Shown here: positions 39,683 to 49,336 of the stretch, piece after piece
Layout: each line of letters starts with the position of its first letter
Position numbering within the stretch: position 1 is the stretch's first letter
Source: Crocinitomicaceae bacterium
GTDB taxonomy: Bacteria > Bacteroidota > Bacteroidia > Flavobacteriales_D > Crocinitomicaceae
Length of the DNA: 64,000 nucleotides
Direction: 5' to 3'
NCBI GenBank assembly: GCA_018402525.1
Contig: JAGYIR010000010.1
Location: 434,001-498,000 of the forward strand
Notes under the pieces: generated by a model
What the model was told of the DNA's origin: nothing
The model's database searches: none
The model's input: the letters and a program-made list of their open reading frames with translations, nothing else
Translations under genes and position numbers: made by a program

Positions 39683-40283
39683 TTATTTTGCTGCCGCGAA
39701 CTTATCACTTACAACATTCCAATCAATTACATTAAAAAATGCATTGATGTAATCTGGTCTTCTGTTTTGGTAATTCAAATAATAAGCGTGCTCCCAAACA
39801 TCCAATCCTAAGATAGGTGTTCCACCACAATTAATTCCCATTAACGGGTTATCTTGGTTAGCTGTTGAACATACTTCTAATTTTCCATTTGCAACGCACA
39901 ACCAAGCCCAACCGGACCCAAAACGTGTTGCAGCTGCTTTAGAAAATTCTTCTTTGAAATTTTCAAAAGATCCAAATGCACTGTTGATTGCTTCGGCTAA
40001 ATCACCAGTTGGTTGACCACCACCGTTTGGCGACATTACTTCCCAAAACAAGCTATGGTTCCAAAACCCACCACCGTTATTGCGAACGGCAGCATTGTCT
40101 TTACATGAAGCTAAAATTTGTTCAATTGTTTTTCCTTCAAACTCAGTCCCAACAATAGCATTGTTTAAGGTTTGTAGTGTATCCATTGTGGTGTTTTGAA
40201 TGGTGGATTTCCATTGTTTTTGCGTCGATATGAGGTTCTAGGGCATCATACGCATATGATAATTTTGGTAATTCGAATGACAT
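39683..40283 (-). CDS. Fe/Mn superoxide dismutase, frameshifted in this sequence
   Basis: The obvious frame starts at 40186 ([13 protein letters not shown]) but lacks the N-terminal helix. Reading on from an ATG at 40283 gives [20 protein letters not shown] with the metal-ligand segment [16 protein letters not shown], then runs out of frame at TTT (plus-strand 40164-40166). Removing one base there restores [14 protein letters not shown] and a 199-residue protein of normal length. All four ligands are then present: His in MEIHHSKHH, His in [12 protein letters not shown], Asp and His in [11 protein letters not shown] single-base insertion in the sequence is more likely than a broken gene. Confidence 0.88.
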
Positions 40284-42603: not shown

Positions 42604-43251
42604 ATGGATTTAATTTCAAAAGGTATTGTAACAGGATTTATACTGAGTATCATGATTGGTCCAGTATTCTTCGTACTCCTCGAAACAAGTATAAGAAAGG
42701 GAATTAGAGCAGCTATCGCTTTTGATCTAGGCGTGATTATAAACGACATTGTGTACATCGCCATTGCTTTCTTTTTTTACAATCAAGTAGAAGCATTATC
42801 CAAAGGGAATGATAATTCTATTTTACGTCTTATTGGAGGAACATTATTTATCGCTTACGGGTTGTATAATTTCTTTAAGGAGACAAAGGAGATTAGTGTC
42901 GAAACGGATGGATTGGAGGTACAGAATTCAAGAGGTTACTTGTTGTTAGCGCTAAAGGGGTTTTTGCTCAACTTAGCAAATCCAATGATCGTTTTTTACT
43001 GGTTCAGTGTCATGACTTTAGGAGCAAAGGATGCCGCCGAAGGAGGGTCGGGACATTCAATGATTGTTTTTATTTCGTCCATCTTGATTACGTTTTTTAC
43101 CATTGATTTACTAAAAATTGTCGGGGCAAAGAGTTTAAGACCACTTGTAACACATAAATTACTGAAAGGATTGAACAGTTTAATTGGAATTGTTTTTGTT
43201 GGGTTTGGAATTGTATTGATTACCCAAGGAATAATTGGAGTTTTCAAGTAA
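42604..43251 (+). CDS. LysE/RhtB family exporter
   Basis: A 215-residue inner-membrane protein with six predicted helices. The N terminus has GIVTGFILSIMIGPVFFVLLETSI, the conserved LysE opening with Pro in the first helix, and ALKGFLLNLANPMIVFYWFSV is the mid-protein signature. The family exports amino acids or small metabolites. It is 35 bp upstream of the MORN-repeat gene on the same strand; a functional link is not evident. Confidence 0.9.
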   Translation: MDLISKGIVTGFILSIMIGPVFFVLLETSIRKGIRAAIAFDLGVIINDIVYIAIAFFFYNQVEALSKGNDNSILRLIGGTLFIAYGLYNFFKETKEISVETDGLEVQNSRGYLLLALKGFLLNLANPMIVFYWFSVMTLGAKDAAEGGSGHSMIVFISSILITFFTIDLLKIVGAKSLRPLVTHKLLKGLNSLIGIVFVGFGIVLITQGIIGVFK

Positions 43252-43286
43252 CAAAGTTGCCCCAATTCAGTTATACTAAAAATTTT

Positions 43287-45005
43287 ATGATGCTAAGAAT
43301 AATCACTTGTCTTGTAATTCTATTTCTTGGAGTGAATGCCAATGCTCAAAAAATAGAAAAGGAAAACCTCTCTAAACAAAAACAAACCTATTGGGATTTC
43401 AATCATGTCCAGGTTCAATCGGCTGGTAAATACTATACTGATGCGCTTGGCGAAACGACCAATGAACATGGAAAATGGAAATATTTTAATCGTTTAGGTG
43501 AGCTTGAAGAAGAAAGAAACTATTACAATGGATTACTTCATGGCGAGTCTGTTCGGTTTTTCCCAAATGAAAGTAAGGAGCAACAAGGATTTTTTAAATG
43601 GGGAAGACAAGACAGTGTATATCGTGAATGGTACGAAACTGGAACCCTAAAAACAGAAGGGTATTACAAATTGGATGTGCCAGTAAATGAGTGGAAGTAT
43701 TATTATCGAGATGGTCGATTGAAATCGGTAGAAGAAATCAAAGGGAGTGACAATTATTTGTGGGCGTTTTACTTGCCAGATTCGTTGCACACACAGACAG
43801 TAATTGACGGTGAAGGAGAAATGACGACGTATTACACGACAGGCACTGTAAAGGAATGGTACAACTATAAAAAGGGGCTAAAAAACGGACCATTTGAGGA
43901 AATTAGTATTTACGGATACGTTACGCTAAAGGGTGCCTTTAAGGATGGTGAAAAAGATGGTACCTGGGAGTATTTCTATTATTCAGGTGAAAAGGAAAAA
44001 ATCACAAATTATGTGAACGGTGCCCTCAATGGAAAGTATGAATACTACTACGACAATGGGCAGTTAAACGTAGAAGGATACTATAAAAATGGTAACAAGG
44101 ATGGGGTGTGGTCATGGTATACGAACACAGGGAGCAGAGACATGTCAGGAACGTTTAAGGATGATCTGCAACATGGCGACTGGACATATTGGCACCCAAC
44201 CGGTGAACTTTCTTATACAGCGAAATACTCCAACGGACTGAAGGATGGTCAATGGTCTTATTTTTATAAAAACGGTAAGAAATTTAAAGATGGAACCTTT
44301 AAAGACGACGAGAAAAACGGCACATGGAAAACCTGGTACGAAGACGAAACCTTACTCATGGAAGGAGATTATGTCAACGGGAAAGAAGAAGGGAAGTGGG
44401 ACAACTACTGGGAGAACGGTGAGCTTAAAAATTCAGCAACTTTCAAGTCTGGTGCATTAGAAGGAGAGTGGCAATCGTATTACCCGAATGGTAAACCAAA
44501 GTTGACTGGGAAGTACAGCGACAACATGAAGGTCGGGGAATGGATAGAGTATTTCGAGAATGGTAAAATAAAGGATGTTCAGAATTACAAGTTATTCAAA
44601 AAGAAGTCAAAGGTCGATTACGGAATCATGAAGAATCGCGTGGTCATGGAAAGTCTGCTGAACGGCACGTCAATTTCGTATTCTTCCAAGGACTATAAAA
44701 AAACCGAAGAAGGAAATTATAAAGAAGGATTGAAAGATGGTGAGTGGATTGCCTACCATCCCGGTGGAAAAAATCCTGCAGTGGTTTCTAATTATAAGGC
44801 AGGAAAGTTAAATGGTTCGATGAAACAGTACGATCGGCGTGGCAACTTAATGTCAGAAATAGAATACAAGGAGGGTTTGAAACACGGTTCATTTATCGTC
44901 TATGACAAACGAGGTAGGGTACTGAACGAAAGAAAATTTTCGCACGGAATGCAAATCATCGAAGGTCAGAACAATACACCAGGTTCATTCACTCCTGGAA
45001 AGTAA
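43287..45005 (+). CDS. secreted MORN-repeat protein (YwqK-like)
   Basis: A 572-residue protein. ATG 43287 gives a signal peptide (MMLRIITCLVILFLGVNANA) that the longer frame would bury. The rest is a tandem array of about 20 repeats of 22-24 residues with the pattern GxxxDGxWxYYYxxGxxxxxxxY (NGKYEYYYDNGQLN, KDGEKDGTWEYFYYSGEKE), i.e. MORN_2-type repeats as in YwqK. Related proteins are annotated as antitoxins of a YwqK type in some databases, but the secretion signal speaks against a cytoplasmic antitoxin here. Likely a surface or periplasmic repeat scaffold. Codon usage is uniform. Confidence 0.82.
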   Translation: MMLRIITCLVILFLGVNANAQKIEKENLSKQKQTYWDFNHVQVQSAGKYYTDALGETTNEHGKWKYFNRLGELEEERNYYNGLLHGESVRFFPNESKEQQGFFKWGRQDSVYREWYETGTLKTEGYYKLDVPVNEWKYYYRDGRLKSVEEIKGSDNYLWAFYLPDSLHTQTVIDGEGEMTTYYTTGTVKEWYNYKKGLKNGPFEEISIYGYVTLKGAFKDGEKDGTWEYFYYSGEKEKITNYVNGALNGKYEYYYDNGQLNVEGYYKNGNKDGVWSWYTNTGSRDMSGTFKDDLQHGDWTYWHPTGELSYTAKYSNGLKDGQWSYFYKNGKKFKDGTFKDDEKNGTWKTWYEDETLLMEGDYVNGKEEGKWDNYWENGELKNSATFKSGALEGEWQSYYPNGKPKLTGKYSDNMKVGEWIEYFENGKIKDVQNYKLFKKKSKVDYGIMKNRVVMESLLNGTSISYSSKDYKKTEEGNYKEGLKDGEWIAYHPGGKNPAVVSNYKAGKLNGSMKQYDRRGNLMSEIEYKEGLKHGSFIVYDKRGRVLNERKFSHGMQIIEGQNNTPGSFTPGK

Positions 45006-45602
45006 TTAAGCAAATAGACCTTTCACGTTTGCAGTAAACAATTTCACAGCGATCGCAAGTAGGATGATTCCAAACACCTTTTTTAGGATAGCAATTCCTC
45101 CTTCACCCAATACACGTTCTATCACACGCGTGAGTTTTAGTACGACATAAACAATGATGATGTTGATGAAAATTGCAATGACAATATTGATTTCCTGATA
45201 CTCTGCGCGCAAGGAGATAATCGAAGTCATCGTTCCAGCACCTGCTATGATTGGGAACGCTAGCGGAACAATACTTGCCGTTTTACCAGATACCTCGTCT
45301 CTAAAAAGGCGCACACCTAAAATCATTTCAAGCGACATTGCAAAAAGAATCAATGAACCAGCAACCGCAAACGATTTAACGTCGACGCCGAATAAATTCA
45401 AAAGACTTTCTCCAAGGATTAAAAAAGTCAGCATGATGACAAGAGAAACCAAACTTGCTCTGAGCGCCTGAATATCTTCTCCTGATTGCTCCTTCAACTT
45501 AATAATAATCGGAATAGAACCTACAATATCAACCACAGCAAACAAAACCATCGAAGCTTTAAAAATCTCTAACCAACCAAACCCTGTAAAAAATTCACTC
45601 AT
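45006..45602 (-). CDS. MarC family inner-membrane protein
   Basis: A 198-residue protein with six predicted helices. Conserved pieces are FAVVDIVGSIPIIIKL, SLVIMLTFLILGESLLNLFGVD, ALPLAFPIIAGAG-like VPLAFPIIAGAGTMTSII. The family has no proven transport role; it was once linked to multidrug resistance and later separated from it. The start overlaps the purN stop by 4 bp (ATGA), so the two genes are translationally coupled, purN being upstream. Confidence 0.9.
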   Translation of the reverse strand: MSEFFTGFGWLEIFKASMVLFAVVDIVGSIPIIIKLKEQSGEDIQALRASLVSLVIMLTFLILGESLLNLFGVDVKSFAVAGSLILFAMSLEMILGVRLFRDEVSGKTASIVPLAFPIIAGAGTMTSIISLRAEYQEINIVIAIFINIIIVYVVLKLTRVIERVLGEGGIAILKKVFGIILLAIAVKLFTANVKGLFA

Positions 45603-46180
45603 AGCGTATTATTTAAGATGGTTTTTTCAATCACAGCTGGTAAATGATCCTGTTCGAGGCGATGAATTTTAGCGGCAAGATCTTCTGCACTGTCACTTGG
45701 AGCAACAGGACAACTGAACTGCGCAATAATTTCACCTTTGTCGAATTCTTCATTTACGAAGTGAATCGTAATTCCAGAAGTAGTTTCTTTATTTTCAATC
45801 ACCGTTTTGTGCACGTGAATTCCATGCATTCCTTTACCGCCATATTTGGGCAGCAGTGCTGGGTGAAGATTAATTATACGTCCTTCAAAAGCGTGAATAA
45901 AGGATGCTGGAACTAATCGTAAATAACCCGCAAGCACAATCCAGTCGATGCTATGCTCTTTGCAAATTTCAGTAAGTAAATCGCCATCTGCCACCTCTTG
46001 ATTAGAGAAATTTAGTACTCGAACCCCAAGGTCACTCGCCGAATTTAAAACAGGCGCTTCTGATTTGTTACTCAACACAAAACCGACCTCAATCACTTTA
46101 TGCGCTTTGAAAGATTGGATGAGGTTGATAGCGTTTGTTCCTGTTCCTGAAGCAAATATGGCAATTCGAATTTTATTCAT
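45599..46180 (-). CDS. purN: phosphoribosylglycinamide formyltransferase
   Basis: A 193-residue purine biosynthesis enzyme using formyl-tetrahydrofolate. Motifs: IAIFASGTGTNAINLI near the N terminus, the catalytic block NLHPALLPKYGGKGMHG with Asn/His, and SGITIHFVNEEFDKGEII with the catalytic Asp. The length is normal. The -7 box TAACTTTG lies only 4 nt before the ATG. Coupled with marC downstream. Confidence 0.93.
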   Translation of the reverse strand: MNKIRIAIFASGTGTNAINLIQSFKAHKVIEVGFVLSNKSEAPVLNSASDLGVRVLNFSNQEVADGDLLTEICKEHSIDWIVLAGYLRLVPASFIHAFEGRIINLHPALLPKYGGKGMHGIHVHKTVIENKETTSGITIHFVNEEFDKGEIIAQFSCPVAPSDSAEDLAAKIHRLEQDHLPAVIEKTILNNTL

Positions 46181-46184
46181 GCCG

Positions 46185-46192
46185 CAAAGTTA
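46185..46192 (-). promoter_or_regulatory. -7 box of purN, 4 nt before the ATG
   Basis: TAACTTTG on the minus strand, with CGGC between it and the ATG at 46180, implying a leaderless mRNA. Confidence 0.45.
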
Positions 46193-46236
46193 GGAAGTAT
46201 GATTATATTTAATCTCAAACTATAAATATTTCTTTC

Positions 46237-46911
46237 ATGCAGACTAAGAACCACTTGTTCATTACTTACGAAGGTGAAACATTTTCGAGCGACGAAATGA
46301 AAAAGCGCGCGTCTAGCTTTTATGCTTGGGCGGACAAAAGAAGATCCGTACGTGATTTTTCGGATAAACCCGTCCCAAAAGAAGTGATGGAAGACCTTAT
46401 CATGACAGCTTCATCGGCACCATCGGGAGCGCATAAGCAGCCCTGGACCTTTTGTTTAATTTCCAATGCTTCATTAAAATCTAAATTAAGGGAGCTTGCC
46501 GAAGAAGAGGAGAAAAAATCCTACGAAGGAAGAATGAGTGAGGAATGGTTAGAAGATTTGGAACCGTTGGGCACAAATTGGGTCAAGGAATTCATTGATA
46601 TAGCACCATGGATTGTAGTCGTTATGAAACGCGCCTATGAACTAAATGAAGATGGAACCAAGCACAACAACTATTATGTAGCAGAATCTGTAGGATTAGC
46701 AGCAGGCTTTTTTTTGATGGCGGTACATAATGCTGGGTTAGTCGCCCTGACACATACGCCAAGTCCCATGAATTTCATCTCAAAAGCCTTAAATCGCCCT
46801 GAAAACGAGCGCCCATTTTTATTAATCCCAGTAGGTTATCCTGCTGAGAACGCACAAGTGCCTGCATTGAAGCGAAAAGTAAAAGAAGAAGTAATACATT
46901 ATTATGAATAA
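46237..46911 (+). CDS. iodotyrosine-deiodinase-like nitroreductase-fold flavoprotein
   Basis: A 224-residue FMN protein. FMN-phosphate motif DKRRSVRDFSDKPVP and SAPSGAHKQPWTF are nearly the same as in vertebrate iodotyrosine deiodinase. The substrate-lid motif that distinguishes deiodinases from other nitroreductases is present: EEEEKKSYEGRM for the Glu and Tyr, and NWVKEFIDIAPW for the Lys. HNAGLVALTHTP and LLIPVGYPAENAQVP are also shared. Known bacterial homologues dehalogenate iodo- and bromotyrosine. The three lid residues make the assignment good; the in vivo substrate is not known. Confidence 0.85.
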   Translation: MQTKNHLFITYEGETFSSDEMKKRASSFYAWADKRRSVRDFSDKPVPKEVMEDLIMTASSAPSGAHKQPWTFCLISNASLKSKLRELAEEEEKKSYEGRMSEEWLEDLEPLGTNWVKEFIDIAPWIVVVMKRAYELNEDGTKHNNYYVAESVGLAAGFFLMAVHNAGLVALTHTPSPMNFISKALNRPENERPFLLIPVGYPAENAQVPALKRKVKEEVIHYYE

Positions 46912-46976
46912 TAATTTTGTTTTTTGATAGTTTGTGGTTTTCTTTGCGGCTGAATTAACCATAAAAAAAGGAACAA

Positions 46977-47213
46977 ATGTCTGATGTTAAATCAAAAGTA
47001 GTATCTATTATCGTAGATAAGTTAGGTGTTGAAGAAAGCGAAGTATCTAACGAAGCAAGCTTCACAAATGATCTAGGAGCTGACTCTCTAGACACTGTTG
47101 AGCTAATCATGGAATTTGAAAAAGAATTCAACATTGCAATTCCAGATGATCAAGCAGAGAACATCCAAACAGTTGGAGACGCTATTTCTTACATCGAAGA
47201 AAACGCAAAGTAA
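46977..47213 (+). CDS. acpP: acyl carrier protein
   Basis: A 78-residue acidic four-helix protein with the phosphopantetheine attachment site [18 protein letters not shown] (Ser about residue 38). It carries growing acyl chains in type II fatty acid synthesis. Placed 36 bp upstream of fabF, the standard pairing. Confidence 0.97.
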
Positions 47214-47249
47214 GAGTTTGAGTGATATTAGTTGAATGAACGTTCGTGT

Positions 47250-48503
47250 ATGGAATTAAAAAGAGTTGTTGTCACAGGTTTAGGAGCCCTCACGCCAATT
47301 GGAAATAACCTTTCTGATTATTGGGATGCGCTAAAAAATGGTAAAAGTGGCGCTGCTCCAATTACTCAGTTCGACGCGACGTTATTCAAAACTCAGTTTG
47401 CTTGCGAGTTAAAAAACTTTGATATCCATGAACACATGGATAGAAAAGAAGCAAGGAAATTGGATCAATTTTCGCAGTATGCCATGGTTTCAGCAGCTGA
47501 AGCTATGGCAGACGCTGCGCTGTTGGATGCTAATCCCAACTTAGACAGAATTGGTGTTATTTGGGGATCAGGAATTGGAGGACTAAAAACCTTTCAAGAC
47601 GAATCTCAAAATTTCTTCGCCGGAGACGGAACACCAAGATTCAACCCCTTCTTTATCCCAAAAATGATCGCTGATATCGCAGCAGGTCATATTTCTATTC
47701 AATATGGACTTCGCGGACCGAATTACGTTACTGTTTCGGCGTGTGCTTCATCTACTAACGCGATCATTGATGCATTCAATTATATTCGCCTAGGTAAAGC
47801 AGACGCTATTGTTACTGGTGGTTCTGAAGCGTGTGTCAATGAAATGGGAATGGGTGGGTTTAATGCTCTAAAGGCACTTTCCACCCGAAATGATTCACCT
47901 GAAACTGCTTCTCGTCCCTTTGATTTGGACCGTGAAGGTTTCGTGCTTGGTGAAGGAAGTGGAGCGTTGATTCTCGAAGAATATGAGCATGCTAAAAGGC
48001 GTGGCGCTAAAATTTATGCCGAAGTAGTAGGTGGTGGAATGTCTGGTGATGCTTATCATATGACTGCCCCACATCCAGAAGGAATTGGTGCGCGTAATAC
48101 AATGCTTGCTGCTTTAGATGATGCAGGATTGTCACCTGAGGACATCGACTATGTAAATGTTCATGGAACTTCTACACCTTTAGGTGACGTAGCCGAGGTA
48201 AAGGCAATTCATGACGTATTTGGTGAGCATGCATATAAATTAAATATCAGCTCAACGAAGTCAATGACCGGCCACTTACTTGGTGCTGCTGGAGCCATTG
48301 AAGCCATTGCTTGTGTGAAAGCTGTTCAAGAGGATACTGTTCCTCCTACGATTAATCATTTTACCGATGATCCAGCCTTGGATAACAAATTGAATTTTAC
48401 ATTCAATAAAATGCAAGAAAGAACCGTAAAGTATGCGATGTCTAACACGTTCGGTTTCGGTGGACACAATACAACCGTAATCGTTAAAAAATATCAAGGG
48501 TAA
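47250..48503 (+). CDS. fabF: beta-ketoacyl-ACP synthase II
   Basis: A 417-residue condensing enzyme. The ATG at 47250 (MELKRVVVTGLGALTPIG) is the usual start; an upstream TTG adds six residues of no family similarity. Catalytic Cys in VSACASSTNAI, His in VHGTSTPLGD and Lys/His in STKSMTGHLLGAAGAIEA are intact. Ends GGHNTTVIVKKYQG. In the operon acpP-fabF-rnc, which is the usual order in Bacteroidota. Confidence 0.97.
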   Translation: MELKRVVVTGLGALTPIGNNLSDYWDALKNGKSGAAPITQFDATLFKTQFACELKNFDIHEHMDRKEARKLDQFSQYAMVSAAEAMADAALLDANPNLDRIGVIWGSGIGGLKTFQDESQNFFAGDGTPRFNPFFIPKMIADIAAGHISIQYGLRGPNYVTVSACASSTNAIIDAFNYIRLGKADAIVTGGSEACVNEMGMGGFNALKALSTRNDSPETASRPFDLDREGFVLGEGSGALILEEYEHAKRRGAKIYAEVVGGGMSGDAYHMTAPHPEGIGARNTMLAALDDAGLSPEDIDYVNVHGTSTPLGDVAEVKAIHDVFGEHAYKLNISSTKSMTGHLLGAAGAIEAIACVKAVQEDTVPPTINHFTDDPALDNKLNFTFNKMQERTVKYAMSNTFGFGGHNTTVIVKKYQG

Positions 48504-49220
48504 GTGTTGACTTTGTTTCAATTCTTGTTCAAGAAAAAATCACAACGAGAGGTAGAAATCACCCAATTTATTTCAAAATCCTTTGGTTATCAACCAAAAT
48601 CCATTCATTATTTTGAAAGAGCGTTAACGCACAAATCAATTGCCAATGAGGTAATCGAGTCCAATGAGCGACTCGAATTCCTTGGGGACGCCATTCTTGA
48701 TTCGATTATTGCAGAGTATTTATACACAAAGTTCCCAAATGAAGACGAGGGCTATTTAACAAAAATAAAATCCAAAATTGTCAATCGAAAAACTCTCGGC
48801 GATATGGGGCATGAGATGGGATTGAGCAAAATAATGAAGTACGACAATAGTCGCTCGATTAAATTACAAACCATTGAGGGAAATGCCTTCGAAGCACTGA
48901 TCGGTGCCATTTATCTAGATGGTGGTTATCGAAAGGCACAATATGCTATTGAGCAACACATCTTTAGGAAATACCTCGACTTGAATCAATTGTTGGTAGA
49001 AGAGTTAGACTTTAAGTCAAAGCTCTATATCTGGTGCCAAAAAAACAAATTGCAGCTTTCATTTGAACTCGTTTCTGAGGAGAATCTTGGGCATGAATGG
49101 AAGTATACCGTGGAAGTAATAATCAACGAGCAACCGTTCGGAATAGGGATAGGAACTTCTAAGAAAAAAGCAGAGCAAGTAGCTTCAAAAGAAACACTTG
49201 AGTTAATCGGAGAACTATAG
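48504..49220 (+). CDS. rnc: ribonuclease III
   Basis: A 238-residue dsRNA endonuclease with GTG start directly after the fabF stop. RNase III signature ERLEFLGDAILDSIIAEY has the catalytic Glu and Asp; the second catalytic set is in NAFEALIGAIYLDGGY. The C-terminal dsRNA-binding domain (about 165-235) ends GTSKKKAEQVASKETLELIG. It processes rRNA precursors and other RNAs. Translational coupling with fabF is likely. Confidence 0.95.
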   Translation: MLTLFQFLFKKKSQREVEITQFISKSFGYQPKSIHYFERALTHKSIANEVIESNERLEFLGDAILDSIIAEYLYTKFPNEDEGYLTKIKSKIVNRKTLGDMGHEMGLSKIMKYDNSRSIKLQTIEGNAFEALIGAIYLDGGYRKAQYAIEQHIFRKYLDLNQLLVEELDFKSKLYIWCQKNKLQLSFELVSEENLGHEWKYTVEVIINEQPFGIGIGTSKKKAEQVASKETLELIGEL

Positions 49221-49268
49221 ATCAAGTGATAGTCCTTTCAGAATGACTTCAGTTTAACAAATTTGCCT

Positions 49269-49276
49269 TATTTTTG
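49269..49276 (+). promoter_or_regulatory. -7 box of the M48 protease gene
   Basis: TATTTTTG, 60 nt upstream of the ATG at 49337. Confidence 0.35.
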
Positions 49277-49336
49277 ATTTTCATCAATACTCCATTTTCG
49301 AAGCTTTTATTCGAAGTTATTTATTTTAATCTGCGT

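Follow-up and report, generated by a model that had tools for sequence, protein, structure and literature searches.

The locus raises the question whether a protein encoded in the 64,000-nucleotide stretch of Crocinitomicaceae bacterium DNA analysed here (the window) is a true iodotyrosine deiodinase (IYD) or another flavin enzyme of the nitroreductase superfamily, and, if it is an IYD, what role such an enzyme plays upstream of acpP, fabF and rnc. An earlier note on this DNA had called the product a bacterial deiodinase-like enzyme. The gene is a single unbroken frame running from ATG to TAA (Table 1) and the only IYD copy of its genome (G000; 3.16 Mb, 98% complete), in which no further match occurred at E ≤ 0.001. 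The nearest named relatives, with 75-79% identity, come from MAGs labelled Flavobacteriales, Fluviicola sp. and Crocinitomicaceae.

Using phmmer against solved structures, we found the IYD of Haliscomenobacter hydrossis as the top match (5ko7, 5ko8 and 5krd; E 6.8e-90), followed by a second tier made of the mouse and human IYDs (E about 5e-55 to 1.5e-53), then by the 6pz0 IYD (1.1e-23) and the remaining nitroreductases (1.5e-13 or weaker). As measured by phmmer, the likeness of the query sequence to IYD far exceeds chance. In a MAFFT alignment, the identities are 58.7% to the H. hydrossis IYD (218 columns), 41.9% to the mouse IYD, 42.0% to the human IYD and 22-28% to three rows of BluB (5,6-dimethylbenzimidazole synthase). 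Since the alignment, the tree, the fold and the family models agree, we place the query inside the IYD family and outside BluB, FbiB and the nitroreductases, which upholds the deiodinase-like assignment of the earlier note. The product is a genuine IYD orthologue and an ordinary member of an already known, structurally characterised bacterial family.

The residues that we take to be the substrate-reading lid of IYD are all present. The strings EEEEKKSYEGRM, NWVKEF and SAPSGAHKQPWTF occur in the query protein, and the full Glu/Tyr/Lys lid triad that had been claimed from them stands, as E92, Y96 and K117 align with their counterparts in the H. hydrossis, mouse and human IYDs; the lid residues did not align elsewhere, an outcome that the earlier note had named as speaking against its reading. 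Computed from structural-alignment ranges, the triad equivalents are residues 157/161/182 in human, 153/157/178 in mouse and 91/95/116 in H. hydrossis IYD, and human residue 239 likewise corresponds to Thr174 of the query. All four residues are invariant among 135 non-redundant homologues, which a tblastn search with the query had collected (E ≤ 1e-20), five of 179 loci having been excluded from the alignment for in-frame stops and proteins under 185 aa (L007, L026, L032, L056 and L120). The lid triad has no counterpart in the three BluB outgroup rows, so that a triad rule cleanly separates the IYD family from BluB. The Glu-x3-Tyr pair and the Lys are also visible by eye in eight homologues carried by Bacteroidota, Streptomyces, Nonomuraea, Paraburkholderia and Deinococcus replicons. 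What the lid does is described in PMC5499721.

The remaining motifs are of the same kind. SAPSGAHKQPWTF, claimed earlier to be nearly vertebrate-like, indeed matches TAPSGAHTEPWTF of the mouse and human IYDs at 10 of 13 positions; its P62 (PSGA motif) is invariant in the 135 homologues, and its A65 presumably binds the substrate phenolate through the backbone. We assume that RRSVR binds FMN as in IYD structures, and likewise PSGA and the arginine of the C-terminal KRK (R213), which is R in 123 of the 135 homologues and K in the other 12. Thr174 (human Thr239) presumably lies near the flavin N5 and controls one-electron dehalogenation; the title of PDB entry 5yak reads 'human IYD Thr239 mutant'.

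Table 1. Features of the IYD locus and of two actinomycete IYD loci (L193, L198); coordinates without a locus prefix are positions in the window, and homologue counts refer to the 135 aligned homologues.
Feature	Position	Strand	Remarks
IYD orthologue, FMN nitroreductase fold	46237..46911	+	224 aa; sequence, tree, model and structure matches
RRSVR, residues 35-39	46339..46353	+	R35 and R39 in 135/135, R36 in 134/135 homologues
SAPSGAHKQPWTF, residues 60-72, holds A65	46414..46452	+	A65 in 135/135 homologues; G in BluB
Lid residue Glu92 (human 157)	46510..46512	+	E in 135/135 homologues; N in BluB
Lid residue Tyr96 (human 161)	46522..46524	+	Y in 135/135 homologues; gap in BluB
Lid residue Lys117 (human 182)	46585..46587	+	K in 135/135 homologues; L in BluB
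Thr174 (human Thr239)	46756..46758	+	T in 135/135 homologues; differs in the three BluB rows
purN (formyltransferase), divergent neighbour	45599..46180	-	PF00551
acpP, 65-bp spacer after IYD	46977..47213	+	PF00550
fabF	47232..48503	+	PF00109/PF02801
rnc	48504..49220	+	PF14622/PF00035
Lrp/AsnC regulator, divergent from IYD, Streptomyces sp. NBC_00525	L193:5318-5848	-	AsnC ligand-binding domain
Lrp/AsnC regulator, divergent from IYD, Nonomuraea gerenzanensis	L198:3439-3981	-	AsnC ligand-binding domain

The predicted fold points in the same direction. An AlphaFold2 monomer model, built from 25 aligned sequences (pLDDT 89.1, pTM 0.86), retrieved only IYD chains at Foldseek ranks 1-25, the top one being the iodotyrosine-bound 5ko8_B (E 9.1e-31). 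With VIA-align, 5ko8_B gave a Z score of 26.7 (218 residues superposed, 2.1 A), the mouse and human IYDs scored 26.3 and 6pz0 scored 22.7, so that the IYD entries span Z 22.7-26.7; the first entry outside IYD reached 18.9 and the BluB structure 2isj 18.0. The earlier note had proposed a phylogeny with characterised deiodinases, and in a maximum-likelihood tree of 118 rows (those more than 82% identical to a retained row having been removed), rooted on BluB, the query groups with the IYDs and apart from BluB, the vertebrate and BluB branches being long. The query falls within a clade of 21 rows from its own family (support 100/96), and the H. hydrossis IYD branches with two Saprospiraceae-type rows (88/68), while the position of the vertebrate IYDs is unsure because long branches meet there.

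The query can thus be compared with four known proteins. The H. hydrossis IYD, its top match by sequence and by fold, comes from the same phylum and shares the lid triad and the Thr, but it groups with Saprospiraceae rows rather than with the query's family, and it has been crystallised with FMN, iodotyrosine or 2-iodophenol (PDB titles), whereas the query is known from its sequence and a model. The mammalian IYD/DEHAL1 (3gfd, 3tnz and 4ttc) has the triad, the Thr and the motifs in common with the query over a catalytic domain of about 42% identity. The 6pz0 protein, which we take to be the IYD of Thermotoga neapolitana, has the IYD fold but is more distant (32% structural-alignment identity) and shorter (192 aa). 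BluB shares the superfamily and the FMN fold, but neither the lid triad nor a comparable identity. In mammals, IYD recovers iodide in the thyroid (PMC5499721), and the title of a reference in PMC4708624 describes the protein as transmembrane. Because the alignment to mammalian IYD starts at about residue 5-11 of the query, the latter has no room for a transmembrane anchor.

From these data, the protein is very probably a competent halotyrosine dehalogenase. We propose that a free halotyrosine (iodo-, bromo- or perhaps chlorotyrosine) would be held beneath the helical lid by Glu92, Tyr96 and Lys117, that reduced FMN would donate electrons to the halotyrosine phenolate with the lid closed, and that the halide would then leave and tyrosine be released, the enzyme acting, like the activity itself a prediction, as a homodimer with the active site at its interface and supplied by an electron donor. 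This reductive scheme is drawn from the account of mammalian IYD in PMC5499721. Human IYD removes bromine from bromotyrosine and dibromotyrosine in vitro, and its authors mention having seen earlier no significant dechlorination of chlorotyrosine (PMC4708624), so that iodo- and bromotyrosine are the safest substrate predictions.

Two other views of the catalytic activity have to be weighed. The first takes the protein for a general FMN-dependent nitro/quinone reductase of the nitroreductase superfamily, misread as a deiodinase; it can point to PF00881 Nitroreductase, which heads the Pfam matches of the query (83.5 bits, a superfamily-level assignment), and to the public annotation of homologues as 'nitroreductase family protein'. 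We consider it very improbable, because the lid triad and Thr174 are both present, the IYD structures rank above every other nitroreductase and the oxygen-insensitive nitroreductase models score far below their cut-offs (29.9 versus 223 bits for PRK10765 and 20.4 versus 227 for PRK11053; 20-40 versus 152-227 bits when PRK05365 is included). No NCBIfam model passed its own cut-off for the query, the best match being the BluB model TIGR02476 (59.4 bits versus 150), and the FbiB C-terminal domain/F420 ligase model TIGR03553 reached 48 bits versus 249.55. The label 'nitroreductase family protein' on the public homologue records that were examined appears to hide a well-defined dehalogenase. Another possibility is that the IYD pocket has been kept for a different native substrate, some other ortho-substituted phenolic amino acid or tyrosine derivative, dehalogenation being a side activity. 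Bacteria do not make thyroid hormone, no halogen-related gene lies near the query and the neighbourhoods of IYD loci are varied, and 6pz0, taken to be the Thermotoga enzyme, was crystallised with plain L-tyrosine according to its PDB title. Against this, the residues that we take to recognise the zwitterion and the phenolate of halotyrosine do not vary in homologues with as little as about 43% identity, and we regard a different native substrate as unlikely but worth keeping in mind.

As for the physiological role of the proposed halotyrosine dehalogenase, we lean slightly towards a job in which halotyrosines left by protein breakdown or by oxidative halogenation of protein are returned to tyrosine for reuse and kept out of the tyrosine pool; for the Crocinitomicaceae bacterium, we infer a role in salvage or detoxification. 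The remark of the earlier note that no halotyrosine pathway accompanies the gene was borne out, since neither halotyrosine pathway genes nor halogen-related genes were seen near it, and our literature searches found no paper on the native role of bacterial IYD. Tyrosine catabolism is plausible in this organism given a homologue of 4-hydroxyphenylpyruvate dioxygenase (HPD) above the family cut-off in its genome (G000:C1:109708-110787). It was considered as a co-occurring pathway and rejected: HPD is above its cut-off in 146 of 150 family genomes and full-length IYD occurs in 50, without co-variation, and HPD, being near-universal in the family with or without IYD, is uninformative for the role of IYD.

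The statement that the gene lies upstream of acpP-fabF-rnc was confirmed by Pfam, which also identified purN and marC divergently upstream. Of 144 unique loci with enough flanking sequence, 37 carry a co-directional acpP no more than 200 bp downstream of IYD, at gaps of 66-122 bp; 26 of the 37 also have a divergent purN within 300 bp. Every locus with more than 66% identity belongs to this acpP-linked set apart from L049, whose acpP lies 1419 bp away. In three same-genus genomes whose whole sequence is without IYD (G018, G083 and G126), purN directly adjoins acpP, and the two are adjacent also in G541, where IYD was checked at the locus. As IYD-less genomes have purN and acpP side by side, IYD sits at an old junction from which it was probably lost cleanly several times. 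A scan of 45600-49300 for sigma-70-type promoters returned fewer sites than shuffled sequences, Bacteroidota promoters being different from the sigma-70 type.

Near full-length IYD matches (E ≤ 1e-80) occur in 50 of the 150 family genomes, two of these copies carrying one in-frame TGA, and one further family genome retains a remnant covering residues 144-223 only. IYD is present in 16 of 19 same-genus genomes and, phylum-wide, in 123 of 392 genomes at E ≤ 1e-20. Copies with in-frame stops and remnants were noted in draft genomes (L007/L032, L026/L056 and L120; G072:C75:9828-10067 and G299:C12:246645-247265) and may reflect either decay or assembly error.

With this distribution in hand, two views of why the gene lies where it does can be judged together. 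One is that IYD works with the acpP-fabF operon, for instance in fatty-acid or acyl-carrier metabolism, as might be thought from the 37 close linkages, two of which (L069 and L167) are outside the query's tree clade. We find it very improbable, because the linkage is missing in 107 of the 144 loci, purN-acpP is intact in the three same-genus genomes without any IYD and the active site is of the halotyrosine-enzyme type; the acpP-fabF-rnc context is a lineage-specific gene order and no evidence of function. The other view, that IYD is an accessory gene gained recently by mobile elements or horizontal transfer, draws on its patchy presence in the family and on a plasmid collection in which large replicons of Bacteroidota, actinomycetes, Paraburkholderia and Deinococcus carry homologues. 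We judge it improbable, since many family loci share one junction and form one clade, no phage match was found and the in-frame stops or remnants of some genomes make the patchiness fit loss.

Several other genes of the window are worth recording. A LysE-type translocator of the amino-acid exporter family (42604-43251, plus strand) lies about 3 kb upstream of IYD, and a similar gene is present in eight other loci. It is followed by a MORN-type repeat protein of 582 aa (43257-45005, plus strand). For the Fe/Mn superoxide dismutase frame (39683-40186, minus strand), the match to the N-terminal domain begins only at profile position 36, so that its start may have been called too far in, or the gene may lack its beginning.

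The neighbours of IYD differ in other lineages. They are methyltransferase and BrkB-family genes in Pontibacter, his genes in Fulvivirga and its relatives and, in Saprospiraceae, genes for an SDR and a TANGO2-family protein, and an amino-acid permease lies by IYD in three of the five fetched loci of one group (f17); no partner gene conserved across Bacteroidota was found among the IYD loci compared. Linkage to peptidases was considered because several close same-strand neighbours in the wider phylum were peptidases, which would suit halotyrosine salvage. It was rejected, as 30 scanned neighbours (of 44 rows) held five peptidases (M24, M14, S9, M1 and M16) versus four (S46, M28, S8 and S41) among 30 genes drawn at random from non-adjacent positions in these loci. 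A dedicated reductase partner was rejected too: a flavoprotein oxidoreductase follows IYD directly in both Deinococcus loci, but the two look to be of different types because they share 27% identity over a 195-column stretch and differ in their Pfam top matches.

The annotated records from outside Bacteroidota, nine in number, come from the plasmid collection, and in two of their three actinomycete loci a gene for an Lrp/AsnC regulator is divergent from IYD (Table 1). The Streptomyces sp. NBC_00525 and Nonomuraea regulators are 63-65% identical to each other; no similar AsnC regulator was present in the other loci of the 200 searched, including every Bacteroidota locus, and Streptomyces sp. 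Caat 7-52, whose IYD is 93% identical to that of NBC_00525, has none alongside. Members of the Lrp/AsnC family usually respond to amino acids, and the adjacent gene is often their target, so that the pairing in these two loci points to an amino-acid substrate for IYD in those actinomycetes; to our knowledge, no halogenated-amino-acid sensor of the AsnC type has been described. We offer as a tentative proposal, with the odds against it, that bacterial IYD is a housekeeping amino-acid quality control which removes halotyrosines formed by environmental or oxidative halogenation before they can be built into protein or pass into tyrosine catabolism, and that the actinomycete iyd is switched by a halotyrosine-sensing divergent AsnC. 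Together, the triad rule and the actinomycete AsnC pairing open a direct experimental route to the purpose that IYD serves in bacteria.

Two further loci may be mentioned. One IMG/VR contig has a partial IYD (48% identity, residues 9-90) at its end (L192:3001-3246), possibly in bacterial flank. In one genome (G372; L161:1818-5824), the gene 119 bp upstream of IYD encodes an amino-acid permease homologue and the gene 135 bp downstream a member of the ornithine cyclodeaminase/mu-crystallin family. Thyroid hormone is a ligand of mammalian mu-crystallin, and this neighbourhood may be a coincidence.
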